Positions 6,973 through 37,077 of a stretch of 51,585 nt of DNA are shown here, piece by piece; position 1 is the stretch's first letter; every line of letters starts with the position of its first letter. The stretch comes from Thermoguttaceae bacterium (GTDB lineage Bacteria; Planctomycetota; Planctomycetia; Pirellulales; Thermoguttaceae). The position numbers and the translations under genes are program-made. The notes under the pieces were generated by a model, which was not told where the DNA came from, searched no databases, and saw only the letters and a list, made by a program, of their open reading frames with translations. The stretch spans positions 1 to 51,585 of the forward strand of contig JANXBW010000008.1 of the NCBI GenBank assembly GCA_025060325.1. Direction: 5' to 3'.

Positions 6973-9900
6973 TTACCATTGATCAACCCAGCTCCCGGTT
7001 GTGAGAACATAATCCACCCCCTCGGCAATAACTCGCCGATCGGTGGCACCGGAACTGCGGGCTTCCACGAAGCTAAAATCGAAAAGTTCCACCCGATAGG
7101 ACGATTCCAACCCTAGTAGCCGAACGTAGTCACGCGATGCCTCCAGAAGATCAACAGCCGGGGTGCCTGCGAGCGTAGCACGATGATCCGCCCCCTTTCG
7201 TCCACGGAACTGGGCAGACTCCGCTCCCCAAACGCTTAAACGGGTATTAGGCAGCGATAGCTGGAAGCTATTTCCCTCGACGACGAGTCTGGCCCAATCA
7301 TGAGGAAGCACTACTTCCGCCTGATTAGTCCCACCTTGGAGGTAAATAGAGACATCGGTATAACCTACCGCATAGCGTCGCCATCCTTGGCCAAAAAGCC
7401 CCACCGTGCCGCTCTCGACCTGGAGTCGCTCGGGCGCTTCCGTGCCGTAAAGCCGCGCACTGCTAGTCCGGTTTGCCGGGGCATAAGCTACCACATTGGC
7501 AAATCCCCACGCCCGCGAAAAGAATCCAGCCCCTTGAAGAACCCCGTAGCTAGCCGTCAACGTCACGATCGTTGTGCCGTCCTCTGGGTAAAGTCGGGCA
7601 GAGTCCTTGCCGCCGGCTGTGCTAAACGCTTGAACCTCACTGAAATCGTAAACGCGAAGCTCGTACGAATGGCCGCTTAAAGTGGTATAGCGGGGAGTGG
7701 CCACAAGGGCATCATCCCCCGGCTGGTCGTACAGAATTGCCCGGTCAGCACCTCCCATTCCGTAAACGGCTACCTGGAAAAAGCCGGTTGCCTGGAGTTG
7801 AAACACTCCCGACCCCAGCCGAACAACACCCCCTTGTGCACGAAGTGTCTCCGGGTTCGCCGAGCCGACTAAAGTCGCTCGGTCCTTCCCCCCGGCTGAG
7901 GAAAAAGCCGCAACCCGCTCGAAGCCAGTTCCCCTCACCTCCCAAGCCTGCCCACCCCAGCGGAAGTAAGTGGGCGAGCACCAAAACGATTCGTCCCCTT
8001 GCGAATCATAAACGCGGACATTGTCCACACCACCCACATCCGAATAGAGAGTAACTCCCGGAAAGGCAAAGATCCGGTAGATCACCGGCCCTCGGGTAAA
8101 ACTCACATAGCCTGGTGTCACCGTGTACGAATCATCCCAAGGGCCATCATAAACACGAGCTAAATCAGCCCCACCATTGCCCGGATAAAATGACGTGACA
8201 GCAAACCCGCCCACTCGGAAAGAATACCCTGGACCGACCAATGTTGCCGAACTATTGCCGACGGTCAACAAGTCATCCCCTTGACCGCCCCACAAGCCAG
8301 CGGAATCATTTCCCCCGGAGCCGGCAAAAGCATCCAGGTTGTTTATCCCCCGAAATTCCACCGCCAAACCCGCCGATTGCCATTTGGCAAAGCCTGGCCG
8401 AGCTACAAGGATGTCCTCGCCTGGCCCACCGCGCAGGTTGGCCGTCAGCTGGCTTCCTTGAGCTTCCACCGTCACTGTTTTGAAACCGGAAAGCCGAACG
8501 CTGTAGTCCCCAGTTGTCAGTTGCAACCGCCCGGCCGAAACGGTTGCCTGCGCTCGGGGAAGGGGCATCGTAACGACCGAAGCTTTGCCGCCGCGCCCCT
8601 CGATGTAAACATCTTCCCAATTTGTCCACGCGACAATCGGCCCGATTCTTTGTCCGGGTAACCCAAAGCTGCCAGACCCTTGCGGGTCGCCGTTGCTTGC
8701 CTGGACGTTTCCGCCGAACGGATCAGCTTGGAGGAAAATCTCCTCGGGCCAGCTCACCTCCAACCTGTCGACGCCGGAATAACCCAGCACATTCATCCGA
8801 CTTACAGGTTGACTAATCTGATAGGAAATTCCATTCCAGAACAGGGCGATGCCGCTTTCAATCCGGAGCGAGGCCCAGTCGGCCCGATCGGTTCCGTGGA
8901 CATTAATTAGCCCGTCGGACACCACTTCCACAACGTTGGCAAGGGTTAGGAGAGCCAGTCCCGGAGGAGCCTCTATCCGCACATGCCACAAGCTTGGCGC
9001 GCTGGCGGCTGTGACGTCTCCGCGGACTACCCCCCGCCCTCGCCCGTCCCATAGCGGTTGAGCGTAGGGATTTTCGTATACAGAAAGCCGGACGGGAAAA
9101 TCGCCCCCAGCCTCCGCCAAAAAAGTCACTAACCCGGCACGAGTGCTTTCCACGCTTGCCCACGTTACCCCGTCAGGCCCTACCGGCACTGCCCAGCGCT
9201 GGTAGGTGGCACTGCCAAGGGTAACGGGTAAAGGTATCGCAACTTCAAAGATATCCTCAGGCAATTCGCCGGGCACACCGTCGCCGTCGCAGTCTAGATG
9301 GAAGCCTGCCCAAGAAGCAATCCGCGGCCCCAATCGAACCCGATATTCCCCCCGAAGGCTTTGTGCTGGGAATCCAAGCCGAAGGGTCTGGGGATTTGGC
9401 CAACTGACATCCACAACAGGGATCGGCCCTGCCGGGCCCCGAAGGAGCTGCACATCGTCGGCGGTACTAAAGCTGTGGATATCGATCGGTTGTGTGAACA
9501 CGGCGGAGATAGCATGAAGGGCACCGGTTTCATTCACCTCCGGCATAACCCCAGCCAACCGGGGCGCTTCCAATGGGAGCCCTTCCAGGAGCAGTCCCCA
9601 CCGAGTAAGGAGTCCTTCATCGCGCCGGCTATCATCGTACACATGTAGCTGCCAAAGTCCTCGCGCGGGTTTACCCACAAGCTGCGACAGTGGCGTCTCC
9701 GGGCGAAAGCGACCCAGGAACGGCGCTTGCCCCTCGGCAATAGGCACAGGAGCGGAATCGTCTAAAATGGTCCGCCGAAAGTTATCCCCGGCTCCGCCCA
9801 CATCTGTTACAAGCTCGATCCGTGTTCCGTCGGGCGCAACGAGAAAGACATCCAGATCAGCAACAAACGTATGTTCAATCTCAAGAAAGACGTCCACATC

Positions 9901-12900
9901 ACGGAGCACGAACTCATCCACAACAAGAATTTCAGCAACTGCCGTTTGCAAATCGCGGATCGGAAGGGGATTACCCGCAGAGACATAAAACTGGCTCGGC
10001 AGGACCCGAAAGCGCAAAGTCCAATCCCCGCCAGGTCGGCCATCGCTGTCACCATCCAGAGGAAAGCCAACATCGTTTTTTACCGCGGCTGCCGCAAGCC
10101 GGAGTTGATAGTGCCCCGGAGGCAATCGCCCCGCATGGGGCAAGAGTGTTAGCCGATCCGGCGCCGTTTGCTCCCAAAGAATATCAAGGCCGAAAAGGCG
10201 GTCATCGATCGAACCCCATATTCCGTCCTGCCCCACGTGGACTAATTCTGCCGCCGGCAAGGGACCGGTAAGATCGACCGTGACCGGTGCCGAAAAGACG
10301 ATCTCTAGTTGGCGGACAGCTTCCAGAATCTCCCCGCCAATATGTGGGCTTGGTGTTATCGCGAGCACCTGAACTGGCATCTGCCCGTGTTTACGGATTT
10401 GAAGTTCCCAGCTTACAAGCTGGCCTTGGTCGAAAAGGCTGTCGTCGAAAATCTCCAGGGTCCAAGTGCCCTGGGCTGATCGCCCGACAAATCGCCCGAG
10501 CGGCTCGGCCGGCCGAAAACGTCCCCGGAAGGGAGCCGTCCCTTGGGAGATCGTCAAGGATGCCTCGTCATCCAAAATCGTGTTGACGAAGTTTTGCCCT
10601 GATCCCCCAACATCCGCCCACAAGAGGATCCGCGTTCCATCGGGCCCGATTAAGTACACATCTAAGTCGGCCACATAGGTGTGCTCGATGGTGAGGGCTA
10701 CGTCCAGATCACCGATGACGAGGGCTTCCGGCACGACAATGTGGCTTCGCGTCCACTGCCAATCGGTAATCGAGCGGGGCAGATCGGTTGCTCGGTAACG
10801 GGTCAGTTGGGGATCGCGTATCGTAAATCGGCCAGAATAGCCAGGCATCGGGTTGCCATGCCGGTCACGCACTGCCCCTTCAACTAGCCGAAATTCCACC
10901 ACACCATCTGCCGGCAGCTCGGCCAAGGTGTACACGATCGTGGTATCACTCTCTAGCCCGGCGGCAGGGACAACCCCTTCGGAGAGAAGAAGATCGTCTA
11001 CACCAACAGTAGCTCCGTCAACAGGTTCATTCCATGTGAGAACAAGCCGCCGCGGAGGGGCTGCCAGGACGGCGTCGCTTGTCGGCTCTGTGCCAACAAC
11101 GGCACCGAGCACCGCATCGTAATACCAGATTGCTTGCCATGCCTGCACCGGCCGGCTTGAGCCCAGCTGGCGCACGGCCCCCGCTTCAAGCTCCAGGAGC
11201 TGTGGTCCCTCAGCACTTACGGGCGAGGACGGGAAGGCGTATTCCACCTCGTTACTGCCCAGCAGGCGGAACTGCTCGGCCGGGTGACCGTTGACGCGAA
11301 ACCCGCCCGGCACCAGAGTGCTTGGGTCGACTGGGCCCGAAAAAACTAAGCGGAAGATGCGCGGAGGTTCGGTTACTCGTTGACCTTCGCCCGGGAAAGA
11401 GCCTGCTACCCGGAAATTCAGGGCCTGAAGTGTCCCCCTGGCATTTAGTCGCCCGCCAGACAAGACAAGGGCACTCCAGCCGGGCAGGCGATCGACTCCT
11501 TCAAGGAGGGCTTGGCGGATATCGGCCAGCGAAGCCGCGGGAGCAGCAGCATATGCTAAAGCCACTGTGCCGGAAACAAACGGCGCCGCCATGCTAGTCC
11601 CACTTAGCCAGGCGTACTCCTCGCCGGGATAGGTGCTTAAAATGTCCACGCCTGGAGCAGCAAGATGCACTCGCTGACGCCCAAAGTTGCTGAAGCTTGC
11701 CAATTGGTCGCGAGGATCGCTTGCAGCAACTGCGATAACGTTGGGAAGATCGTAGTTAGACGGATAGTGCGGCGCCGTGTCATTACTGCGTGCCCCGTTG
11801 CCCGCAGCTGCCACAAAGAGGATGCCCGCTGCCCCGGCGTTTCGCACAGCCGACTCAAGAGCCTGGCTAGGGCTTTCCGTTCCCCAACTTGCGTTGATGA
11901 CCCGAACATTCACACCGAAATGGCTGCGCATCAGTGTGACGTAGTTGATCGCCCGAACAGCATCGGCGATGCTTCCCACTCCGTCGCTGCCCAGGAATTT
12001 GACCGCCATCAGCCCCACTTGCCAAGCTACCCCAGTGACACCACGCCCGTTATTTCCCACGGCGCCTATGATCCCGGCCACATGCGTGCCATGGCCATTT
12101 TCGTCCCACGGATCGCTATCGCCCCTGGCAAAATCGTATCCGTATACATCATCCACAAAACCGTTCCCGTCATCGTCGCGACCGTTGCCGGGGACCTCGC
12201 GGGGATTTTGCCACATGTTGGCGGCAAGATCGGGATGGCGATAGTCAACGCCGGTGTCGACAATCGCCACCACTACTGAAGAGGCATCGACACGTTGGTC
12301 CCAAGCTTCTGGGGCGTCGATGTCAACATCCGGTGACAGCCCACCTCTGCCCACGTTGTGAAGTGCCCACTGGTCGCCAAAGAGGGGATCGTTCGGGACA
12401 ACGGCTGGAACCACCCGGGCATCGGGTTCAATCCAAGCAACTTCCGGGCGAGTCGCCAGGATGGAAAGGGCCGCTGCCGCTTCCGCCGGCGAGGGCCACT
12501 CAGTAAGAAGCACACCTGCCTGTCCCAAGCCCACCACTCGGCAGGCCCCCAGTTGATCTAATGTCAACAGCCGGCATGCCTCTTCCACACCGGTGAGCCC
12601 GTTTAAAAACTCGGATTTAAGGGAGAGGATCCAACTGGGGCTTATTTTGGCATCAGCTGGCCTTGCGCTGGCAGGCCCGGGGAGGTCCGCCGCCACACCC
12701 ACGGGGGTTACCGCGGGGGCCGCGGTGGGACCGCCGACGCCATCCACATAGGTGGGAAAAAGGAGCTCGGTAAACCAGGCAACGTCCACCGGGGAGACAG
12801 TTGGGGAAAGAGTTGCTGCAAGGGGATGAGCCTCGGAGGCGGGAAAGCCGCCAGCGTCGGAGCGGAGCCCGGAGAAAGCCCGCTCGCCATCCCCCCATTG

Positions 12901-13116
12901 TAGGGACATTAAGCCTCCGCCGAAAGTACGGCCCACGGAAAGAAGATGACGGAGCTCCAATTTTTCAAATAGGAGCGGCCGGGTCCAATGTTGGCATCGG
13001 CGACGGCGCTTCGCCTCCAAATTGTGGTTGGCCCCCCTCGGGCTGCCGAAAGTGCGGTAAAGCCAGAAAAAGCAACCAAAATTGCGAGAAAACATTTTCG
13101 GCCGGCCTGCTTCCAT
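6973..13116 (-). CDS. Giant secreted subtilase (S8) with tandem P/Homo B domains and C-terminal beta repeats
   Basis: 2047 residues. The N-terminus carries the planctomycete motif FEKLELRHLLS (50-60). The peptidase domain (about 240-560) has the full S8 triad: D287 in VDTGVD, H342 in GHGTHVAG, S508 in SGTSMAAP, plus oxyanion N440. SbsA/Big-type Ig-like modules (about 578-768, 925-1038, 1187-1290) alternate with two P/Homo B domains (775-908 and 1048-1180), recognised by EHTYVADLDV / EHTFVADLDV and ILDD blocks. Residues about 1554-2020 are ten repeats of 46-47 residues. The start ATG follows AAGGGGGG. A TATACT -10-like hexamer lies on the minus strand at 13191-13196. Probably an exported, surface-associated protease; the substrate is unknown. 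Confidence 0.92.
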   Translation of the reverse strand: MEAGRPKMFSRNFGCFFWLYRTFGSPRGANHNLEAKRRRRCQHWTRPLLFEKLELRHLLSVGRTFGGGLMSLQWGDGERAFSGLRSDAGGFPASEAHPLAATLSPTVSPVDVAWFTELLFPTYVDGVGGPTAAPAVTPVGVAADLPGPASARPADAKISPSWILSLKSEFLNGLTGVEEACRLLTLDQLGACRVVGLGQAGVLLTEWPSPAEAAAALSILATRPEVAWIEPDARVVPAVVPNDPLFGDQWALHNVGRGGLSPDVDIDAPEAWDQRVDASSVVVAIVDTGVDYRHPDLAANMWQNPREVPGNGRDDDGNGFVDDVYGYDFARGDSDPWDENGHGTHVAGIIGAVGNNGRGVTGVAWQVGLMAVKFLGSDGVGSIADAVRAINYVTLMRSHFGVNVRVINASWGTESPSQALESAVRNAGAAGILFVAAAGNGARSNDTAPHYPSNYDLPNVIAVAASDPRDQLASFSNFGRQRVHLAAPGVDILSTYPGEEYAWLSGTSMAAPFVSGTVALAYAAAPAASLADIRQALLEGVDRLPGWSALVLSGGRLNARGTLQALNFRVAGSFPGEGQRVTEPPRIFRLVFSGPVDPSTLVPGGFRVNGHPAEQFRLLGSNEVEYAFPSSPVSAEGPQLLELEAGAVRQLGSSRPVQAWQAIWYYDAVLGAVVGTEPTSDAVLAAPPRRLVLTWNEPVDGATVGVDDLLLSEGVVPAAGLESDTTIVYTLAELPADGVVEFRLVEGAVRDRHGNPMPGYSGRFTIRDPQLTRYRATDLPRSITDWQWTRSHIVVPEALVIGDLDVALTIEHTYVADLDVYLIGPDGTRILLWADVGGSGQNFVNTILDDEASLTISQGTAPFRGRFRPAEPLGRFVGRSAQGTWTLEIFDDSLFDQGQLVSWELQIRKHGQMPVQVLAITPSPHIGGEILEAVRQLEIVFSAPVTVDLTGPLPAAELVHVGQDGIWGSIDDRLFGLDILWEQTAPDRLTLLPHAGRLPPGHYQLRLAAAAVKNDVGFPLDGDSDGRPGGDWTLRFRVLPSQFYVSAGNPLPIRDLQTAVAEILVVDEFVLRDVDVFLEIEHTFVADLDVFLVAPDGTRIELVTDVGGAGDNFRRTILDDSAPVPIAEGQAPFLGRFRPETPLSQLVGKPARGLWQLHVYDDSRRDEGLLTRWGLLLEGLPLEAPRLAGVMPEVNETGALHAISAVFTQPIDIHSFSTADDVQLLRGPAGPIPVVDVSWPNPQTLRLGFPAQSLRGEYRVRLGPRIASWAGFHLDCDGDGVPGELPEDIFEVAIPLPVTLGSATYQRWAVPVGPDGVTWASVESTRAGLVTFLAEAGGDFPVRLSVYENPYAQPLWDGRGRGVVRGDVTAASAPSLWHVRIEAPPGLALLTLANVVEVVSDGLINVHGTDRADWASLRIESGIALFWNGISYQISQPVSRMNVLGYSGVDRLEVSWPEEIFLQADPFGGNVQASNGDPQGSGSFGLPGQRIGPIVAWTNWEDVYIEGRGGKASVVTMPLPRAQATVSAGRLQLTTGDYSVRLSGFKTVTVEAQGSQLTANLRGGPGEDILVARPGFAKWQSAGLAVEFRGINNLDAFAGSGGNDSAGLWGGQGDDLLTVGNSSATLVGPGYSFRVGGFAVTSFYPGNGGADLARVYDGPWDDSYTVTPGYVSFTRGPVIYRIFAFPGVTLYSDVGGVDNVRVYDSQGDESFWCSPTYFRWGGQAWEVRGTGFERVAAFSSAGGKDRATLVGSANPETLRAQGGVVRLGSGVFQLQATGFFQVAVYGMGGADRAILYDQPGDDALVATPRYTTLSGHSYELRVYDFSEVQAFSTAGGKDSARLYPEDGTTIVTLTASYGVLQGAGFFSRAWGFANVVAYAPANRTSSARLYGTEAPERLQVESGTVGLFGQGWRRYAVGYTDVSIYLQGGTNQAEVVLPHDWARLVVEGNSFQLSLPNTRLSVWGAESAQFRGRKGADHRATLAGTPAVDLLEASRDYVRLLGLESSYRVELFDFSFVEARSSGATDRRVIAEGVDYVLTTGSWVDQW
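7057..8457 (-). repeat. Coding repeat: about ten tandem 47-residue units
   Basis: In the 2047-residue protease the pattern GG-x-D-x-A-x-LYD-x-x-GDD, then an aromatic strand and an F-x-x-V-x-A strand, recurs at residues 1601, 1648, 1695, 1742, 1788, 1835, 1881, 1928 and 1974, with one more unit from about 1554. The spacing is always 46 or 47 residues (138-141 bases). The last units are degenerate. Confidence 0.8.
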
Positions 13117-28321: not shown

Positions 28322-30367
28322 ATGTGGACAGCAAGGAAGATCCTGTCTACCATGCTTTTCTATTTGCTTTGGGCTGCTGCCTTCGTCGGAGGGACCACCT
28401 TCGGCTGGGGAGCTCCCGAAGAACCGGCGGCACCTTCCTTTACATTACCCAGTGAGTGTGAGCCGGATTTTGTCCGCCTGGATAACGGACGAGACTTATC
28501 CGGGTGGTATCCTGCCCGGGCCAGCGGCGAAGAGCTCCCGGACGTAGCCGGCTGGGAGGTGCGTGATGGTGCCATCTGCCTCGAGGCCTCCCGGGCTCGA
28601 GCCAACCTCTTTTCCCGCCACACGCACAGCCAAAATTGCATCATTCGCCTCCAATTCCGCGCAAGTCCGGGGGCTGATTCGGGCGTTTTCATCCACGGTA
28701 AACAGTTTCAGGTGCGAGATTATCCCGGATCGCTTCCCGACACCAAGCGGTATGCCCCGTACGCCCGGCCAGCGGGGGAGTGGAACGAACTTGAATTTGA
28801 CATAACCGACGGGATAGCGGTCGTCCGACTTAATGGACAAGTCATCGAGCGTCGCTGGCCCATTGGAGAGCGGGCCGAACTTGGCATCGGACTTCAGCGG
28901 GAGGTGGGCGATTTTGCCTTCCGGCTCATTCGCATCAAGGAGAAACCGGCCGGCAGCAAGCCCCAGGCCATGGAAGTGACGTTGCCGGGGCCGGCCGGGC
29001 AGCAACCGGTGGCCAAAACCCCCACACGCCGGCCTAATATCATTGTGTTTATCACTGATGACCAGCGCTGGGACACGTTGGGGATTATGGGAAATCCAAT
29101 CATCCAAACGCCCAACATCGACTCCTTGGGGCGACAGGGGGTGGTTTTTGACAACTGTTTTGTCACCACTTCCATTTGTGCCCCCAACCGGGCGTGTATT
29201 TTCACAGGGCAATATGCTTCTCGACACGGAATTTGGGATTTTCAAACGCCGCTTTCAGAAGAACAACTCCGGAATAGCTATGTCGGGCAACTGAAGGCGG
29301 CGGGTTACTGGCTTGGGTTTATCGGTAAATGGGGCGTGGGAGACCCACCGAAAAACTACTTTGACTACGACCGCGCTTGGCCCGGCCAAAACAATTACCT
29401 TCACTGGATCGGCGGGAAGGTTGTTCACCTTGAGGATATGATGGCCGATCAGGCCGAGGAATGTCTCCGGCTTGCCCCCGCCGATCGCCCATTTTGCTTA
29501 AGCTTTAGCTCCAAAGCACCTCATTGTCAGGACGGCGATCCGGACCGGTGGTTAAAGAATCCTCGATTTGCCGGCTTGTACGAGCGTCATCCCAGCCAAT
29601 TCTTTTACCAGCCGCGTTTTGCCCCGCTTTACCAGGAAGTTACGATACCGCCGGCACCGCTCTCGGAACCCCAGTTTTTCGAATCACTTCCTGATTTTCT
29701 CAAGAATTCCGAAAACCGCGTCCGTTGGAAAATCCGCTTTGCTACCCCGGAGATGTATCAGGAGACAGTCAAAGCGTACTATCGGCTGATCACAGGCGTG
29801 GACGAAACCATAGGCCGGATGCTTAAGGTCCTTCGCGAGCGGGGATTAGCGGACAATACCGTAATTATTTTCAGCTCGGATAACGGGTTTTATTTGGGCG
29901 AGCGAGGTTTTGCCGGCAAATGGTATCCGCACGAGGTGTCGATCCGCGTGCCGCTTGTGATTTACGACCCACGACTTTCCGCGGAGCTGCGAGGCAAGCG
30001 TCGACAGGAGATGGTGCTTTCGATCGATATTGCTCCTACCGTCCTTGAGCTGGCCGGCCTACCCGTGCCGCCGAGCATGCAGGGCCGCAGCTTAGTGCCC
30101 CTCCTTCGCGGAGAAAGTCCGCCGTGGCGCGAGGAATTCTACTACGAACATCTCTTCGAACATCCACTTATCCCGAAGACCGAAGGCGTGCGGACGACGC
30201 GGTGGAAGTATTTCCGCTATTTGGTTGATCCGCCTTATGAAGAACTATACGATCTACGTGTCGATCCCCACGAGGCCAAGAATCTTGCCAGTGATCCTCG
30301 GTACACTGCGGTCCTTAACGAGTTGCGAGCAAAGACGGAATCCTGGCGAAACCAGGTGCGTAAGTAG
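28322..30367 (+). CDS. DUF1080 (3-keto-disaccharide hydrolase-like) - sulfatase fusion, secreted
   Basis: 681 residues starting at ATG 28322 with GGGAGAAG upstream. A signal peptide (MWTARKILST plus hydrophobic core) leads into a DUF1080/LamG-like beta-sandwich (about 45-205: NGRDLSGWYP, GVFIHGKQFQVRD, WNELEFDI). Then comes a type I sulfatase (about 236-675): FITDDQRW (metal ligands D246, D247), C286-A-P-N-R290 with Cys to be converted to formylglycine, GKWG, SSKAPH, SSDNGFYLGERG and ELYDLRVDPHE. It would cleave sulfate esters from polysaccharides outside the cytosol. The DUF1080 domain may bind or cut the glycan. Maturation needs an anSME or FGE enzyme, not seen in this window. Confidence 0.93.
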   Translation: MWTARKILSTMLFYLLWAAAFVGGTTFGWGAPEEPAAPSFTLPSECEPDFVRLDNGRDLSGWYPARASGEELPDVAGWEVRDGAICLEASRARANLFSRHTHSQNCIIRLQFRASPGADSGVFIHGKQFQVRDYPGSLPDTKRYAPYARPAGEWNELEFDITDGIAVVRLNGQVIERRWPIGERAELGIGLQREVGDFAFRLIRIKEKPAGSKPQAMEVTLPGPAGQQPVAKTPTRRPNIIVFITDDQRWDTLGIMGNPIIQTPNIDSLGRQGVVFDNCFVTTSICAPNRACIFTGQYASRHGIWDFQTPLSEEQLRNSYVGQLKAAGYWLGFIGKWGVGDPPKNYFDYDRAWPGQNNYLHWIGGKVVHLEDMMADQAEECLRLAPADRPFCLSFSSKAPHCQDGDPDRWLKNPRFAGLYERHPSQFFYQPRFAPLYQEVTIPPAPLSEPQFFESLPDFLKNSENRVRWKIRFATPEMYQETVKAYYRLITGVDETIGRMLKVLRERGLADNTVIIFSSDNGFYLGERGFAGKWYPHEVSIRVPLVIYDPRLSAELRGKRRQEMVLSIDIAPTVLELAGLPVPPSMQGRSLVPLLRGESPPWREEFYYEHLFEHPLIPKTEGVRTTRWKYFRYLVDPPYEELYDLRVDPHEAKNLASDPRYTAVLNELRAKTESWRNQVRK

Positions 30368-30473
30368 AATGGGTAGCGGGATTCCAATAGCTGGCAGCCG
30401 GTTGCACCCAGGCAAGAGGGTAAAGCGGTTTGTCAACAAGACGAAATCCGCTCGTTGAGGGAATCGGCAGAAC

Positions 30474-30547
30474 GGCGGGGAATGCTTCGATAAGTCGCAA
30501 AAAGGGAGAAGTTGCCTTGATCTTCTCGCAACGGACCGTTCCCCGCC
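30474..30547. terminator. Nested stem-loop between convergent genes
   Basis: GGCGGGGAA (30474-30482) pairs perfectly with TTCCCCGCC (30539-30547). Within it GAGAAG and CTTCTC form a second hairpin. It lies between the 3' ends of the sulfatase gene and the sigma operon and could serve as a two-way terminator or 3'-end structure; no T-run is present. Confidence 0.4.
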
Positions 30548-30585
30548 TCCAGGGGATGCCGTCCTTGCCTCCTCGGGGATAAGTC

Positions 30586-30819
30586 CTAGCCCGGCTGAGA
30601 GGAGGCTTTCCACCGCTCGCGCTCGGCATTACAAATCCGACACTGGGCCTCCTCCACATGATAGCGGACATCACGAAGCGCTGGGTCGTTCGGTCTTTGG
30701 TTATAAGCTTGGAGTCGCTCCGGGGCCGGGCACATCGCTCCAAGTTCGTCCACAACCCAGCGAACCACATCGCCCAGGGTCTTCAAGTGGGGTTCTTTCG
30801 AGGCTTTGTCACGTGCCAC
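30586..30819 (-). CDS. Small zinc-finger-like protein, probable partner of the sigma factor
   Basis: 77 residues from GTG at 30819, overlapping the end of the sigma gene by 11 bases, which suggests translational coupling. The C-terminal half carries an HVEEAQCRIC motif (His-x5-Cys-x2-Cys) resembling the zinc-binding anti-sigma helix, though with wider His-Cys spacing than the classic H-x3-C-x2-C. Similar small proteins follow ECF sigma genes in planctomycetes. It has no TM segment, so a cytosolic modulator. An anti-sigma role is inference. Confidence 0.65.
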   Translation of the reverse strand: MARDKASKEPHLKTLGDVVRWVVDELGAMCPAPERLQAYNQRPNDPALRDVRYHVEEAQCRICNAERERWKASSQPG

Positions 30820-31450
30820 CGGTTGCCTTGCCCCCGTACAACGTCAGGAAGACTGATCGGTCCACATCCTTTTCCATTACCCGGCGCCGAACCCACTCCC
30901 TCGCTTGGTGCAACCACTGATAGACGCTCGCCGGTGCGACACCCATGGCCGCGGCAATGTCGCCGGGACTTTGTCCACGGAGTGATCGCTCGAACGTCTC
31001 CTTGATTGCCAACCGTTGCGGCCGCTTCTCACACCACCGGCAGAATTCTGTCAACACCTCGCTGAGGAGAAGTCCCTGCTTTGCCCGCCTTTCCCTCTCG
31101 GCCACTTGAGAGGAGGGCAGGGGCGTCCTCGCCTCGACTGGTTCAGGGTCGTGGGCTTGCGAGTCGGCCGGAGAGCTTGTCTGCCAACTACGGAAAATCC
31201 GCCGCTCAAACTCCCGAAGCCGATCGATGGCCCGGCTTCGAACAAGAGACAAGATATAGTTTTCCAATTTCCGCGGCGGGTCTAATTCCATTTCCGCGCG
31301 GCGGCTGTAGATTTCAAGCCAGGCGTCTTGAAGAATGTCCTCGGCCTCGTCGGCCAGGCGAGGAAATGCCCCCTTTAGATAACGCAACGCTCGAGGCCGG
31401 CAGGAGTTGAAGATTTCCGTGAGCAGGCGGTCCCTGGCTTCGGGTTCCAA
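30809..31450 (-). CDS. ECF-type RNA polymerase sigma factor
   Basis: 213 residues from TTG at 31450; AAAAGG lies eight bases upstream and the preceding gene ends 18 bases before, in the same frame. Region 2 (RPRALRYLKGAF, DEAEDILQDAWLEIYSRR, LVRSRAIDRLREFERR) and region 4 (GQSPGDIAAAMGVAPASVYQWLHQAREWVRRRV) are joined by a linker of about 60 residues. The C-terminal tail of about 20 residues is extra. Fourth gene of a five-gene operon; it overlaps its small zinc-finger-like partner. The regulon cannot be read from this window. Confidence 0.88.
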   Translation of the reverse strand: MEPEARDRLLTEIFNSCRPRALRYLKGAFPRLADEAEDILQDAWLEIYSRRAEMELDPPRKLENYILSLVRSRAIDRLREFERRIFRSWQTSSPADSQAHDPEPVEARTPLPSSQVAERERRAKQGLLLSEVLTEFCRWCEKRPQRLAIKETFERSLRGQSPGDIAAAMGVAPASVYQWLHQAREWVRRRVMEKDVDRSVFLTLYGGKATGGT

Positions 31451-31468
31451 GGCACTGGCCTTTTGCAG

Positions 31469-32845
31469 CTAGTCAGCCCTGTTCCACGGGCGGATTCGCA
31501 AGACCATTTTTTCCTCCGATTGGGGATCGAGCATCATTCGCCCGAGGCGCTCAGCTTCGTCCCAGGTAGCCTCAATGATAAGCTGGGCTGGACAATAAAC
31601 AAGTCGATCGGCGGGATGCCAGCTCCTGCCGGGGATTTCCATATTGGCCGGTGCTCCATCGACGCTCCAGTGCAGTCCCCCCTCTTGCCAGTGGAATACC
31701 ACCTGTCGACATGGCAGCGTAGGAAGCACAACGTGCGCCGGCTTCTGGCACCCGATAATCAAGCTATCGGCCAAGAGAATTACCCTCCGCAGCATCTGGC
31801 CCGGAGGCGCATAAATGCTGGCTGAGGAGCCAGGTGGCGCTTCTAGCAGGGCCGTCAGCGAACCGGCAACCGGAAGACGAAAGCACAAGCGACAATGGGC
31901 ATCGCCGAACTGAATCGTGGCTTCGTCCGCCAAGGTTGTCACCGCCGGCACTTCCACTTCGTTGACTACCACGGGGCACGCCTGGCCGTGTTTGTCCCGG
32001 CAAACCATCAGTTGCCAACCGAGCCGGTCACGGACAAACACTGCATGCCGGCGATGAATCCGACCAAGGATCGGAAGTTGGACGTCCTCACCCCGCGGCG
32101 TGCCAACGGCCACCTGGTCGGTCGAGATAACAAGCCCCACATCTTCCAAGACAAATGACTGGGTGCGACTTTGGACCGCAGCTGGCTGAGGAGCCGGACC
32201 GGTGCCCGGATAGGAGCGCTCTCGTGCGGCAAGGGCTGCCAGTTGGCCAGTCAACACTCGGACCTGGACCGCGTTGGGACATAGGTTGCGCAGTTTCTCC
32301 AGGTAGTGCCGGGCAAGCCCGATGTCGCCCGCCCCCACCGCATGTTCACAGTCCGCAACGGCCCGAGTGAATCTTTCCTGGCGCAGGCGGACTTCGGAGA
32401 GTGTCTCGGCGGCGCCGGGAAATCCATCCGCCCGAAGCAGTTCGAGCACCGCGATCGCCGAGGCAAATTCGCCCCCGTCGGCTAGCTGCTTAGCCTCGGC
32501 CAATTTCTCCGCCGCCCATTGTTCCTTCTGTTTCCTTTGCTCCTCTTTTCGCTTTTTTTCTGCAATCAAGGCTTGCAAGCGCTGCCTGAGGGTGAGTCCC
32601 TCCCCTTCTAGAGTCACACACTGACCAGCCAGTTCCACGGCGTTCCAGGCAGCCTCAACGTGGCCCAGCTCGGCCTCGGCCTTGGCGTGCTCCACCAAGC
32701 GTTTGCCCACTTCGCCGAGCAATTGCCGGACTGCGCGATGGTCCCGATTTTTGCTTTGGAGTAACAACCGGGCCGCTTCCGCTACCTGCCCCAATCGCAG
32801 ATAGTCACGAGCGGCTTTGCACTCTATAGGATCAAGCCACCCCAT
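31469..32845 (-). CDS. FHA-domain protein with N-terminal helical repeats
   Basis: 458 residues from ATG at 32845; a TTG at 32863 is an alternative with an AGGCGG site. Residues about 1-200 are helical and TPR-like (LGQVAEAARLLLQ, DIGLARHYLEKLRNL) with a charged coil EKKRKEEQRKQKEQ near residue 100. A forkhead-associated-like module follows at about 220-330: LPILGRIHRRHAVFVRD (Arg and His of the phosphothreonine pocket), VVVNEVEV and IQFGDAH. A second, more degenerate copy may occupy 350-455. FHA domains bind phosphothreonine peptides, implying a Ser/Thr kinase elsewhere. It sits 18 bases before the sigma gene, so it may link kinase signals to transcription (inference). Confidence 0.8.
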   Translation of the reverse strand: MGWLDPIECKAARDYLRLGQVAEAARLLLQSKNRDHRAVRQLLGEVGKRLVEHAKAEAELGHVEAAWNAVELAGQCVTLEGEGLTLRQRLQALIAEKKRKEEQRKQKEQWAAEKLAEAKQLADGGEFASAIAVLELLRADGFPGAAETLSEVRLRQERFTRAVADCEHAVGAGDIGLARHYLEKLRNLCPNAVQVRVLTGQLAALAARERSYPGTGPAPQPAAVQSRTQSFVLEDVGLVISTDQVAVGTPRGEDVQLPILGRIHRRHAVFVRDRLGWQLMVCRDKHGQACPVVVNEVEVPAVTTLADEATIQFGDAHCRLCFRLPVAGSLTALLEAPPGSSASIYAPPGQMLRRVILLADSLIIGCQKPAHVVLPTLPCRQVVFHWQEGGLHWSVDGAPANMEIPGRSWHPADRLVYCPAQLIIEATWDEAERLGRMMLDPQSEEKMVLRIRPWNRAD

Positions 32846-32875
32846 GGCCCGATTCTTTCCCAATGTTGATTCCGC

Positions 32876-33508
32876 CTAATAAGCCGTTAGGATCCACAGC
32901 CACAGGAAGGCGATAACGGTCACTAGCCCACCCATAACACCACAGACCACCAATGCCCGATAGTACCCTCGTGTCCACCGATCGATCGCGATCATCAGCG
33001 TAAGCCCCGCCCCAGAAACGAGAATCGTCCCCAGCGCCCCTATGAGCCGCGCCTGCCAGCGGAGACTGGCTTGGTTAACAAGACGGGTGGCCCACTGGCC
33101 CAAAACATGTGGCGGAATAAACAGCGAGACCTCGTGCTCCGCCACCCAACCATAATCTCTGGCCTGACAAGTCCGCTTCACATCCTGCTTGACGCCGGGT
33201 TGGGACGCAAGCCATGTCCATTCGTTTAAAGCCTGGGGGGAGGACAGGCTGACACCGGCAAACTGCCGGGCCAACTCTTGAAGGGCTGCAGCGAGTCTCT
33301 TTGACGCTTCGGCCTCGGCGTCTGTTTGGGCTTCCACCTCTGTTAAGCCGGGGCAGCGCCCACTTGAGACCACAATGGTCCGGCCGAGCGGTTGAGTGGC
33401 AGGGGGAGACGATTCTTCGGGACTGCCGGCCAGCCCCACCAAAACCGCGATAAGCCCGAGGGGTTGCATTTGCCTGTCTCCCATGGAGCATAAAAGCGAA
33501 CGGGCCAT
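32876..33508 (-). CDS. Predicted membrane protein of the sigma/FHA operon
   Basis: 210 residues if started at ATG 33508; ATGs at 33484 and 33469 (GGAG eight bases upstream of the latter) are alternatives, and the frame is open to 33616. A hydrophobic N-terminal segment (LGLIAVLVGLAG) looks like a signal peptide or anchor. A loop of about 130 residues follows, with ARDYGWVAEHEVSLFIPP. Two TM helices close the protein: LIGALGTILVSGAGLTLMI and ALVVCGVMGGLVTVIAFLW. I do not recognise the family. It lies between the coiled-coil and FHA genes with short spacers, so it is probably the membrane part of the same system. Confidence 0.7.
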   Translation of the reverse strand: MARSLLCSMGDRQMQPLGLIAVLVGLAGSPEESSPPATQPLGRTIVVSSGRCPGLTEVEAQTDAEAEASKRLAAALQELARQFAGVSLSSPQALNEWTWLASQPGVKQDVKRTCQARDYGWVAEHEVSLFIPPHVLGQWATRLVNQASLRWQARLIGALGTILVSGAGLTLMIAIDRWTRGYYRALVVCGVMGGLVTVIAFLWLWILTAY

Positions 33509-33557
33509 GGGGAGAGGTCGCCCCCTCCCCACGCCCTGCCGCCCTTGCCCACCGCCA

Positions 33558-34367
33558 CTAAATTTCGTTACCCCCTTCGGCCGCCTGACCCTCCGGCCGA
33601 CCGTACCGCTCGTCAAATCGTTCGATCACTGACCGGGTGTCTGCTTCGACCGGAATGCCCTGATCCCCGATCCGATCGGCATCAAGCACCCGCAGGCCCA
33701 CCCGAATCCGCGATTCGATCTCCCTTGCTAGATCCTTGGCTCGGGCCAGCCGAGAGGTGTCAAAGCTCACCGATCCGGCCGCCTCAGCCGCCTCCAAAGC
33801 CTTCAGCTGTGCGGCCAAAGACTCCGCCTTGATCCGCAGTTGCTCATACTGTCTCCGATACTCGGAAACCTTTGCCTGGGCCATTTCCCGATGTTTCTGC
33901 CGTTCGGCCAGAAGCTTCCGCTTGAGCTGGAGCTCAACCTCGCGAGCATCGAACTCATCCATTTGGGCGGCTAACTTCCGCTCCAAATCGCTGCGGCGAT
34001 AACTCTGCCCGGCGAACTGGACCTGGGGTGCGTCCCCGCCCAATGCCGCCCGAATATTGCGCATTTGCGCCATTAGCTGCTTCTGGGAAGCCTCGAGCTG
34101 GGCCACTTCTTGGGCCAGATTTTCTTCCTCTATCTCTAGCTGCGCCAGCACCCGCTGGTTCCGGCGGATCTCCGGTTCCAGATCGCGAAGCTCGGTGTTT
34201 AGCCGCTCCAATTCAAAGCCAATTGGCGTGGCCTCGCGAATGGCCTCACCAAACCCCCTAAAGGCCGTCTTAATGTAGCTCCAAGTGGTAGCCACCCCCA
34301 AGCTACTAACCACCACTGCTGCTACACTCGCAGCAACCCACCACGGTACTTTCTTGAGCCACATCAT
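33558..34367 (-). CDS. Membrane-anchored coiled-coil protein, first gene of the sigma/FHA operon
   Basis: 269 residues from ATG 34367 with GGAGGGTCGAGAC upstream. One TM helix (about 8-30, VPWWVAASVAAVVVSSLGV) is followed by a long coiled coil (about 50-210) rich in E, L, Q, R and K (LNTELRDLEPEIRRNQRVLAQLEIEE). The C-terminal 60 residues are charged and end in a disordered Gly/Glu-rich tail. Such an architecture suits a scaffold or sensor that spans the membrane. Family not recognised. Confidence 0.78.
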   Translation of the reverse strand: MMWLKKVPWWVAASVAAVVVSSLGVATTWSYIKTAFRGFGEAIREATPIGFELERLNTELRDLEPEIRRNQRVLAQLEIEEENLAQEVAQLEASQKQLMAQMRNIRAALGGDAPQVQFAGQSYRRSDLERKLAAQMDEFDAREVELQLKRKLLAERQKHREMAQAKVSEYRRQYEQLRIKAESLAAQLKALEAAEAAGSVSFDTSRLARAKDLAREIESRIRVGLRVLDADRIGDQGIPVEADTRSVIERFDERYGRPEGQAAEGGNEI

Positions 34368-35517
34368 GTCTCGACCCTCCGTTCAAAGATTTTGCGATGC
34401 TGACCTGAAACGCCGTGGTCCACTTCCCTCGTTCCTGGCACCTGCTTCCTGCCTCAATCTGCGCCGTGTGGCGGCTTGACTAACAAGCGTGCTTCGGTCC
34501 TCCGTCCATATTTGCGAAACAGACCGGCCGATCTTGGAAAAACTCCGTCTAAAGTTTTCTCGCGACTTCCCCTCTGGGTGGGAGTTCCCACCTTTTGAGC
34601 AGTTTGCCTCGATCCGCATGGATGAGCGGCGGCTGTTTCTCCTGAGAGGCTTCCCCCTCTGGCGCAAAAGTTTTCTGATTTGGTAGCCTTTCACCCCGTG
34701 CGTCTTTAAACTGGAAAGGAAAATTGTCGCGGGCCGGTGGCTAAAAATCCGAGCTAGCCACTGGGGAGTACTTTGCCGGCGTTTTCTGGACATAGGCGAG
34801 TGCTTTCCAGCTTACCTGGCAATTCGAGGCAAAGCCCGTTGGGGGAAAGGCCGCCCGAGTCTGGCAACTGGTGGCAGTAGTACGGCCCCTGAAGTGCCCG
34901 CAACCGGTCCATCAGTTACTTTGGCAGTGGTGAGGAAAGTGCGGAACACTTAGGGGCGCCCGAAGGAGGAACCTTTCACCCACGCATCGGGTCCACAAGG
35001 CATACGGCAGGCCCACCTTGGTCCTGGTGCGAATACCCGGCTAACAACCGCGGTTGCCCGAGCATGACGCACGAAACCACCACGACATTAGCGTAGCGCG
35101 ATCCGCATGCGTGCAAACTTCCGCCGTCCGGCTTAGGGACGTCTTTGGTGCTGCTTGGGCGGGTATCGCAGCTGTGGAGCGCACCCGAGAAAGCATTTCG
35201 GCAGAGTCTCCTGCGCCGGAAACGGCCTGTGGGTCCGGTAGCAAAGGACGAAACGCAAAGCCCGCGACCTTCCGGCCAAAAGTTGGAGGCCTTCCGTGGC
35301 GAATCGGCGAGGAATTGCTCGCTTCCGCGTGGACGTGAGGCGATTCCGACCGAAAATGCGGCTTCTTGGCCGATTCGGTCCCGATCTGCGCCGGTCTTAC
35401 GGGGTTGCCAGTCAACCGCACTCGGGACGGCCGGCCCCGTTCCAAACGTGATTTGCCAAACTGCAAAGGAGACCCTCGCAAACTTCAAGCTTAAGCAGTG
35501 GGAAGGGAGGTTTTCCG
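34368..35517. other. Large 1.15 kb gap without a recognisable gene
   Basis: Short frames on both strands have unusual composition and no ribosome sites. A compact terminator-like hairpin lies at 34577-34596 with no gene before it. The region should carry the promoter of the sigma/FHA operon (minus) and of the sugar-isomerase-like gene (plus); neither is obvious. Confidence 0.5.
34577..34596 (+). terminator. Orphan terminator-like hairpin
   Basis: GGTGGG-AGTT-CCCACC forms a perfect 6-bp stem with a four-base loop, directly followed by TTTT. No coding sequence lies just upstream on the plus strand, so it might end a small or antisense RNA starting near the sigma operon promoter. Confidence 0.4.
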
Positions 35518-37077
35518 ATGACGAACGAACCAGATCGTACCTTCGCGCGCGAGAGTTGTTGCTGTGGATGTCAACGGCCGATCATGGCGCAGCTTGGGAC
35601 CCACATCAACCGGCGGCAATTCATGTTTGTCTCCACCACTGCCGCCCTTACCGCCGCGCAGGTAACCGCCGAGACCGGCGCCGTGGTGGAACCGCGGGTC
35701 TCCCCGATCTATAAGCCGCTTCGGGTGCAACCTGTGTTTAATTGCCACATTTATCAACGGCAGCCGCAGACAAGTTGGCGGGTTACCGGGGCGATTAACG
35801 ACGAGGCCGAAATGGAGGCCGAAGAAAACCGACTCCGCCAGGAGCTAAAAGAGCTTGCCCAGCGGGCCGACTTTCCGCTTGAAATTCGCCCGCTTGTTCG
35901 CGTGGAAAATGTGGAGCAGGCGGCCAGCGTGGCTCAGGGTGACTTCGACGCAACGCTCATCTTCGCCGCCCGGCGGAATGTGCCGGTGCTTGAGGCACTG
36001 GCCAAGCCGGAGCGGTGGAACCTCATGTTCGTCCGCCATCGCTCGGGGCCATTGTATTACATGTACATCGGGGCCCATGTCCATTATCTCAGGAAGAGGC
36101 GGGACTTCTTTGCCGAACCCGCGATGAATATCCACGATGTGGTCGTGGATGATTACGACGAGGTTCTTTGGCGGCTCCGGGCACTCTCTGCCCTCAAAAA
36201 CACATTGGGAAAGAAGTTCGTGTGTATCGGCGGTCCCGCTGGTTGGGGTGCCGAGGGAAATTTCGCCCCACAAATTGCCACCAAAAACTGGAAGTTCGAA
36301 TATGTGGTCGTACCTTACGAGGAATTAGGTAAACGGATCGAAGCCACTCTTGCCGATCCAAAGCTGGTCCGCCATTGTGAGCACAAAGCCCGGGATTATG
36401 TTCGGCAGGCCGGCGTAACAGTGGAAATTCCCCAGGAGTCGGTTGATCGTGCCTTCGTGCTCACGGAAGTCTTTCTCCGGCTCTTGGAGGAAGCCCAGAC
36501 TGATGCCATTACCGTCCACAATTGCATGACAACGATCATGCCTGTCTCCGGGACAACTGCTTGCCTTCCGTTGACCCTGCTAAATGATGCCGGCCTTCTT
36601 GCCTTTTGCGAGTCAGATTTCGTCGCTATCCCCGCCGGTGTGTTGATGCGGTATATTGCCGATAAGCCCGCGTTTTTCTGCAACCCGTCCTGGCCTCATC
36701 GCGGTGTGGTGACGGTTTCGCACTGCACGGCGCCGCGGCGGATGAACGGTCGCGACCTTGATCCTGTCCGGCTTCTGACCCACTATGAATCGGACTTCGG
36801 GGCGGCCACCAAAGTGGAAATGCAAAAAGGAGAGTGGGTCACCGTTGTCGATGCCGACTTTGGCGGCAAGCGATGGCTTGGCTTTGAGGCTCAGATTATC
36901 GACACGCCTTTCTTCCCGATCTGTCGCACCCAGCTTGACCTAGCCATCGCAGGGCCTTGGGAGCGACTTATCGAGGAAATCCGTGGCTTCCACTGGATTG
37001 TTGTCTACGGGCGGTACCTTCGGGAGGCAGGCTATGCGGTGCGAAAGGCCGGCCTCGATTGGCTAGCTATTGCCTAG
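35518..37077 (+). CDS. Sugar isomerase-like protein (L-fucose/L-arabinose isomerase superfamily) with Tat-like N-terminus
   Basis: 519 residues from ATG 35518, which follows an excellent GGGAGG site. Residues 31-52 read NRRQFMFVSTTAALTAAQ, a twin-arginine-like signal, preceded by a Cys cluster ESCCCGC. The body has the two-part architecture of fucose/arabinose isomerases: an N-terminal Rossmann part (VCIGGPAGWG) and a C-terminal part with TVHNCMTTIMP, LPLTLLNDAGLLAFCESDF, FFCNPSWPHRG and VTVSHCTAPRRM. Related proteins are called sugar isomerases in planctomycetes. Export of such an enzyme is unusual. Isomerase activity is not proven. Confidence 0.75.
   Translation: MTNEPDRTFARESCCCGCQRPIMAQLGTHINRRQFMFVSTTAALTAAQVTAETGAVVEPRVSPIYKPLRVQPVFNCHIYQRQPQTSWRVTGAINDEAEMEAEENRLRQELKELAQRADFPLEIRPLVRVENVEQAASVAQGDFDATLIFAARRNVPVLEALAKPERWNLMFVRHRSGPLYYMYIGAHVHYLRKRRDFFAEPAMNIHDVVVDDYDEVLWRLRALSALKNTLGKKFVCIGGPAGWGAEGNFAPQIATKNWKFEYVVVPYEELGKRIEATLADPKLVRHCEHKARDYVRQAGVTVEIPQESVDRAFVLTEVFLRLLEEAQTDAITVHNCMTTIMPVSGTTACLPLTLLNDAGLLAFCESDFVAIPAGVLMRYIADKPAFFCNPSWPHRGVVTVSHCTAPRRMNGRDLDPVRLLTHYESDFGAATKVEMQKGEWVTVVDADFGGKRWLGFEAQIIDTPFFPICRTQLDLAIAGPWERLIEEIRGFHWIVVYGRYLREAGYAVRKAGLDWLAIA

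Follow-up and report, generated by a model that had tools for sequence, protein, structure and literature searches.

Does an operon that joins envelope proteins, an FHA-like protein and an ECF sigma factor have to signal by phosphorylation? This question is raised by five minus-strand genes, A to E, on a stretch of 51,585 nucleotides (nt) from a Thermoguttaceae bacterium (contig JANXBW010000008.1, here contig C88), which is called the window as a whole and belongs to a genome (G000) of 4.78 Mb in 89 contigs. The initial annotation had described the five open reading frames (ORFs) at 30586-34367, with spacers of 49, 30, 18 and -11 nt, as a candidate system in which an envelope signal is passed by Ser/Thr phosphorylation to the sigma factor. 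All five ORFs and the spacers could be reproduced from the start codons given here, with coordinates referring to the window:

34512-34542, minus strand: promoter-like element TTTTTCCAAGAT-N12-TTCGC, 145-175 nt upstream of A
33558-34367, minus strand: gene A, ATG start, 269 amino acids (aa); N-terminal transmembrane (TM) segment at residues 7-25, then a long coiled coil; homologous to A of the kinase-containing operons (type K, see below)
32876-33508, minus strand: gene B, ATG start, 210 aa; soluble alpha/beta domain, then two C-terminal TM segments
31469-32845 with ATG start (458 aa) or up to 32863 with TTG start (464 aa), minus strand: gene C; TPR-like helical repeats, FHA-like domain and a C-terminal domain common to type-K C
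32054-32056, minus strand: His codon of C at the FHA site where most type-K homologues have Ser; IHRRHA in the window, mostly D-[LIV]-S-x-x-H-A in type K
30809-31450, minus strand: gene D, TTG start, 213 aa; ECF sigma factor with the AED motif in sigma2 and with sigma4
30586-30819, minus strand: gene E, GTG start, 77 aa; probable soluble ZAS-like anti-sigma factor; C30, H54, C60 and C63 invariant

Our best explanation overall, to which we give roughly even chances, is that the five genes are a paralogous version, lacking the kinase, of an envelope-signalling operon of planctomycetes and would work without phosphorylation, the signal passing from B and A via C to E and D, and D transcribing its own operon. 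No kinase gene lies between C and D, which are separated by only 18 nt. Hydropathy predicts one N-terminal TM segment in A, two C-terminal ones in B and none in C, D and E, so that the first labels of A (TM segment and coiled coil) and B (membrane protein) were appropriate.

Two operon types and their distribution

Relatives of the operon were found by searches with C and A, and the loci were typed by profiles. The comparison of gene order, set beforehand as a test that could refute a conserved ECF-sigma signalling operon with envelope proteins, showed homologues in the same order in other genomes within the family and beyond (e.g. 36-58% identity for A and 36-49% for C), and this part of the first proposal therefore stands. 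The closest named matches of window A come from Thermogutta, Thermoguttaceae and other planctomycete metagenome-assembled genomes (MAGs). Two types of operon can be distinguished: type N, to which the window belongs, is kinase-less with the order A-B-C-D-E, and type K has the order A-C-X-Y-D-E', X being a Hanks kinase of about 700 aa with C-terminal hydrophobic segments (PF00069 at 5.9e-51 in the one X scanned). Type K is present in many Pirellulales and in other planctomycete MAGs and is complete in Adhaeretor mobilis, Bythopirellula polymerisocia and Lacipirellula limnantheis. Comparison of type-N with type-K profiles by hhalign gave 100% for A-A, 99.1% for C-C, 96.7% for B-Y in the C-terminal part, 96.5% for D-D and 93.5% (E=2.3e-7) for E-E', with both unrelated control pairs below 1%. 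Quick trees of A and of D, made without bootstrap, each separate types N and K into two clans (SH-aLRT 100). One locus with type-K A, C and X comes from a MAG labelled Chloroflexi (L120), and as its A is placed among the planctomycetes in the tree it points to misbinning or transfer.

A type-N C is encoded at E<=1e-20 in 18 of the 396 genomes sampled from the order, distributed over four families, and the number of genomes with type-N genes is 19 when G115 is counted, where the locus ends after A-B at a contig end. A, B and C are adjacent in 14 loci (window, G026, G114, G113, G009, G003, G020, G032, G070, G071, G002, G240, G174 and G069), and D-E follows directly after C in eight, two of which are from another family (window, G026, G114, G009, G069, G002, G174 and G144). 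Four genomes (G020, G032, G070 and G071) have D-E apart from A-B-C, and in G240 it is found about 2.2 kb further downstream. G001 has kept A together with remnants of B and C, and the locus of G063 begins inside C and continues with weak D and E matches. The window genome itself holds further members of both types, namely an orphan type-K C-X-Y on contig C44 (L088 5290-9397) with no A, D or E nearby, a type-K D on contig C33 (10502-11134) with E' behind it and a lone type-N-like A on contig C20.

This natural pair of paralogous operons, with and without kinase and often in one genome, allows one to study which role is left to an FHA adaptor without phosphorylation, and it bears on planctomycete sigma control when a membrane anti-sigma factor is absent. 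In a literature search covering titles and the beginnings of abstracts neither operon type was described; two key papers (Jogler 2012, Wiegand 2020) were outside its reach, so an earlier description of type K is possible. An FHA protein (RB1789) and an ECF sigma factor (RB1790) of Rhodopirellula baltica are numbered adjacently, the latter being upregulated in high salinity (PMC2754498), and they are at most a possible parallel to the type N/K system.

Two observations on type N count against our main explanation. The rule that its genes always occur together had to be rejected, as G046 carries a lone type-N C (L187 13528-15051) that is preceded by a fragment of a Clp-like ATPase gene and around which none of A, B, D and E could be detected. 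Moreover, broken copies exist in the relatives: C of G001 contains stops, D of G002 an in-frame TGA (G001 and G002 being the two other genomes of the genus examined), and A of G069 is split. It could be supposed from these breaks that the operon is in decay and hardly functional any more. We find this very unlikely, as none of the five genes is interrupted in the window copy, which has also kept the upstream element, and as sequence errors in the MAGs could account for some of the breaks. Downstream of the TGA in G002 the C-terminal part of D and E share one open frame (L038 674-1351).

The FHA-like protein C and the phosphorylation question

The description of C as an FHA protein with helical repeats could be kept by homology and with a joint profile, but not by a Pfam match of its own, as window C gave no match to PF00498 at E<=1. 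All three type-K C homologues scanned do match PF00498 (27.3-29.5 bits against a cut-off of 20.7), and because window C is homologous to them over the FHA and C-terminal domains, we call it FHA-like. When the joint profile of type-N and type-K C was searched against the PDB, KIF1B (3.8e-5), EmbR (0.0013) and GarA (0.0023) were found as well as TPR proteins.

FHA domains contact the phosphate of phosphothreonine with the Ser of the SxxH motif and the Arg of the GR motif. In an alignment of 72 distinct C proteins, in which proteins sharing the same C-terminal stretch count as one and the fragment of the broken G001 gene is included, this Ser is present in 49 of 57 type-K sequences and in none of the 15 type-N sequences, which carry 13 His, one Arg and one Pro (the broken G001 copy) instead. 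A later batch repeated two loci already counted (L184, L187) and added three further type-N loci with His, His and Arg, which brings type N to 0/18 for Ser and 15/18 for His. Fisher's test on the Ser, N versus K, yields 4e-10 without tree correction, a value that is no probability of independent events because the rows are related. Half of the type-K exceptions (4/8) are the K copies of genomes which also possess type N (G000, G001, G002 and G026).

For the window copy a phosphorylation relay as proposed initially is thus not supported by the sequences: the operon has no kinase, a search of contig C88 started from the type-K kinase gave no kinase match, and none of the 18 type-N proteins examined has the phosphate-contacting Ser. 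As type K does contain a kinase, the idea suits the related operons better than the one described here. A more far-reaching reading, which we put forward tentatively and with clearly less than even confidence, is that a kinase-FHA-sigma system has been duplicated and one copy has become phosphorylation-independent by loss of the kinase and of the FHA Ser (to His in most cases), so that the FHA-TPR protein would be a pure contact adaptor linking the envelope sensors to a sigma factor and its soluble zinc anti-sigma factor, a pair driving its own operon.

Several results speak against so clean a picture. The Arg of the GR motif is absent from all 15 type-N sequences, and it is present in only four of the 57 type-K sequences as well, 49 of which have Gln, so that phosphothreonine binding is only putative even in type K. 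The type-K kinase X is encoded elsewhere in all 19 genomes with type-N genes (E<=1e-60). In addition, a second family of Hanks kinases, with about 55-76% identity between genomes and varying C-terminal parts (WD40, beta-helix), lies beside the type-N operon in G009, G020, G069 and G113, on different sides (L035 2-595, L036 1-1260, L093 1-1761 and L097 2-1150). Scores for this family are 194 bits or more in 14 of the 19 type-N genomes and no higher than 123 bits in seven genomes with type K only.

With these kinases at hand, the window operon might still be phosphorylation-based, if a Hanks kinase from elsewhere, either the type-K kinase at C44 or one of the second family, modified B, A or D and C read this modification. 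The type-K kinase of G000 has indeed kept HRDLKP, DYG and the lysine motif. We nevertheless regard a kinase acting from elsewhere as doubtful, since the phosphate-contacting Ser is missing from every type-N C examined, the kinase query found nothing on contig C88, and a kinase of the second family was not found in G000 at E<=1e-30.

Sigma factor D, protein E and the element upstream of A

D had been labelled an ECF sigma factor and matches TIGR02937 (5.9e-14; 52 bits against a cut-off of 42.9) and Sigma70_r2 (3e-8; 33.8 against 24), having sigma2 and sigma4 and no large sigma3; the sigma4 match (r4_2) is just below the cut-off with 22.5 against 25.7 bits. The acidic motif of region 2.2 is intact (DEAEDILQD, with AED). 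A close relationship between window D and type-K D, suggested by the hhalign value of 96.5%, was rejected on account of the profile scores, and a common C-terminal tail is suggestive only. With the type-K sigma profile window D reaches 28 bits, fewer than the 62.5 bits of a generic ECF sigma factor (C77) from its own genome, and the matches listed at E<=1e-4 included no type-N D from any of six genomes. Both results count against our main explanation: judged from its sequence, window D may be an unrelated replacement or a strongly diverged relative of the type-K sigma factor.

No obvious membrane anti-sigma factor had been seen in the operon at first. E is indeed not membrane-bound, yet it carries a ZAS-like ligand set, and E or E' directly follows 42 of the 49 distinct D genes that do not lie too close to a contig end (40 by ORF profiles and two added later); we therefore reject the view that the operon has no anti-sigma factor, as E fits one. 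This tally comprises D genes above 150 bits in profile-typed loci; five at contig ends were set aside, and the broken G002 D and later-added loci were left out. It includes ten type-N D genes, all with E behind, and the seven D genes with room but no E are of type K. D and E stay paired even where they are apart from A-B-C. In all 22 aligned sequences (4 type N, 18 type K) the pattern C-x23-H-x5-C-x2-C and W21 are invariant. Because of this position and the invariant Cys/His/Cys/Cys set, we read E as probably a soluble ZAS-like anti-sigma factor that would bind zinc and inhibit D.

Not everything about E agrees with this assignment. According to PMC7406223, the zinc motif of class I anti-sigma factors is H-x3-C-x2-C and most soluble ones carry it; as E has x5 in place of x3, it is not filed as a ZAS member. 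E has no credible Pfam match, the fold search gave a best E of 2.3 with Foldseek and two rows at Z 2.1 with VIA, with no anti-sigma chain among the matches listed, and a sequence search of the PDB with E gave nothing useful. PHROGs and NCBIfam profile searches with B, C and E also returned nothing usable. The deviating ligand spacing, the missing fold match and the seven type-K D genes without E would also suit a different role, in which E is a small zinc protein assisting or activating D, or a redox sensor without direct contact to the sigma factor. Such a role appears unlikely to us, given the frequent position right behind D, the four-helix model of E (pLDDT 76), in which the metal ligands presumably lie about where ZAS proteins carry them, and a weak zf-HC2 match in type-K E', which is below the cut-off and in the other half of the protein.

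Upstream of type-N A we found an element of the form T-run-CAAGAT-N12-TTCGC. Used as a relaxed regular expression, it matches 13 of 17 type-N regions upstream of A, the lone A of G000 included, versus one of 59 type-K regions (these may include duplicates), and 0.02 times per 450 nt over all loci. In leave-one-out scoring, 13 of the 17 type-N regions likewise reach at least 16 bits, among them the lone A of G000 and G069, which was absent from motif discovery; G032, G070, G002 and G174 fail. The tail fractions of this scoring are too high, as its random background was drawn from loci including true sites. The relaxed match in G002 is probably spurious because leave-one-out scoring places the best site elsewhere at 7.3 bits. 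A strict pattern gave 31 matches in 37 genomes versus 7 for the reversed control. Eight of them precede a type-N A and three a DUF2339 gene; with the other 20 located elsewhere, scattered matches by chance are common. In G000 with its 4.78 Mb and in the single-contig genome G026 the strict pattern occurs once each, both times upstream of A.

Independent promoters before each gene had been named as evidence against an operon. The only conserved promoter-like element found is the one upstream of A, the search for B, C, D and E consisting of a scan for sigma-70-type promoters at 30200-35600, which found none, and a motif scan of the window. D could drive the operon from the element upstream of A, which would amount to autoregulation, and the element offers a direct handle on the regulon. 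The DUF2339 gene mentioned above encodes a membrane protein and is preceded by the element at a distance of about 350-390 nt in three genomes of one genus (L223, L224 and L225), making it a candidate second member of the regulon. A homologue was not found in G000 at E<=1e-30, and the homologues in G062, G020 and G060 have no strong element in the stretch scanned.

The separate D-E pairs could also mean that A-B-C and D-E are two modules which are neighbours by chance, a plain ECF/anti-sigma pair and an unrelated envelope assembly. The four genomes with D-E elsewhere, the distance in G240, the lone C of G046 and a D without specific relation to type-K sigma factors would all agree with this, and the four D-E pairs that stand apart showed no copy of the element in front of them. 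On the other side, homologues of A, C, B/Y and E are joined with an ECF sigma factor in both operon types, the junctions of -11 and 18 nt are tight, and the same element is found upstream of A in loci of both layouts, with D-E attached or apart. Altogether we consider a chance neighbourhood quite unlikely.

Three other genes of the window were noted:

28322-30367, plus strand, convergent with the operon: 681-aa fusion of a 3-keto-disaccharide hydrolase-like domain (PF06439) and a sulfatase (PF00884, SGSH_C)
6973-13116, minus strand: subtilisin-family protease of 2047 aa with proprotein convertase P-domains
35518-37077, plus strand, upstream of the operon: 519-aa protein with no Pfam match at E<=1 and with relatives at loci L089 and L096

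Proposed signalling path and comparison with known systems

For B, the predicted model shows an alpha/beta domain (mean pLDDT 84 over the whole model), and a conserved DRxTxGYYR-like loop connects its two C-terminal TM segments. As this loop is positively charged, it suggests a cytosolic loop and an extracytoplasmic domain. B, whose alpha/beta domain probably lies beyond the inner membrane, might then sense the state of the envelope together with the coiled coil A, itself anchored in the membrane, and both would act on the soluble TPR-FHA adaptor C by direct contact and not via phosphothreonine. C in turn would control the D-E pair, in which the soluble zinc-type anti-sigma factor E would hold the ECF sigma factor D, and once released from E, D could transcribe the operon from the element upstream of A.

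Several parts of this path can be compared with known systems. The domain of B is weakly similar to Lpp20 and dodecins (Foldseek E never below 0.03, Z no higher than 6.0; for Lpp20, residues 43-147 align with Z 6.0 over 92 residues at an rmsd of 4.2), a structural likeness restricted to this domain, as B has two additional TM segments. C shares its FHA domain with the mycobacterial regulators EmbR, GarA and TB39.8/FhaA, as seen in the profile search of the PDB. These regulators bind phosphothreonine; in window C both contact residues, Ser and Arg, are missing, and TPR-like repeats are present. E resembles the soluble zinc class I anti-sigma factors ChrR and RsrA in having no predicted TM segment, a place next to the sigma gene, candidate ligands of the form Cys...His...Cys-x2-Cys and predicted helices, but differs from them in its H-x5-C-x2-C spacing, its size of only 77 aa and the absence of a detectable sequence or fold match.

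That planctomycete ECF sigma factors are tied to Hanks kinases is already known from PMC8999054. ECF43 sigma factors have no DAED motif in region 2.2 and are switched by kinase phosphorylation (PMC8999054), and in the systems EcfP-PknT and EcfK-PknS sigma factor and Hanks kinase form one unit, as in the type-K relatives. Window D differs on both counts, as it keeps AED and has no neighbouring kinase. The same source also links the planctomycete groups ECF59, ECF61, ECF62 and ECF217 to Ser/Thr kinases, a combination of ECF sigma factor and kinase like that of type K, where the Hanks kinase gene is located two genes upstream of the sigma gene. Compared with these groups by description only, the window operon has no kinase and possesses an anti-sigma-like gene instead.

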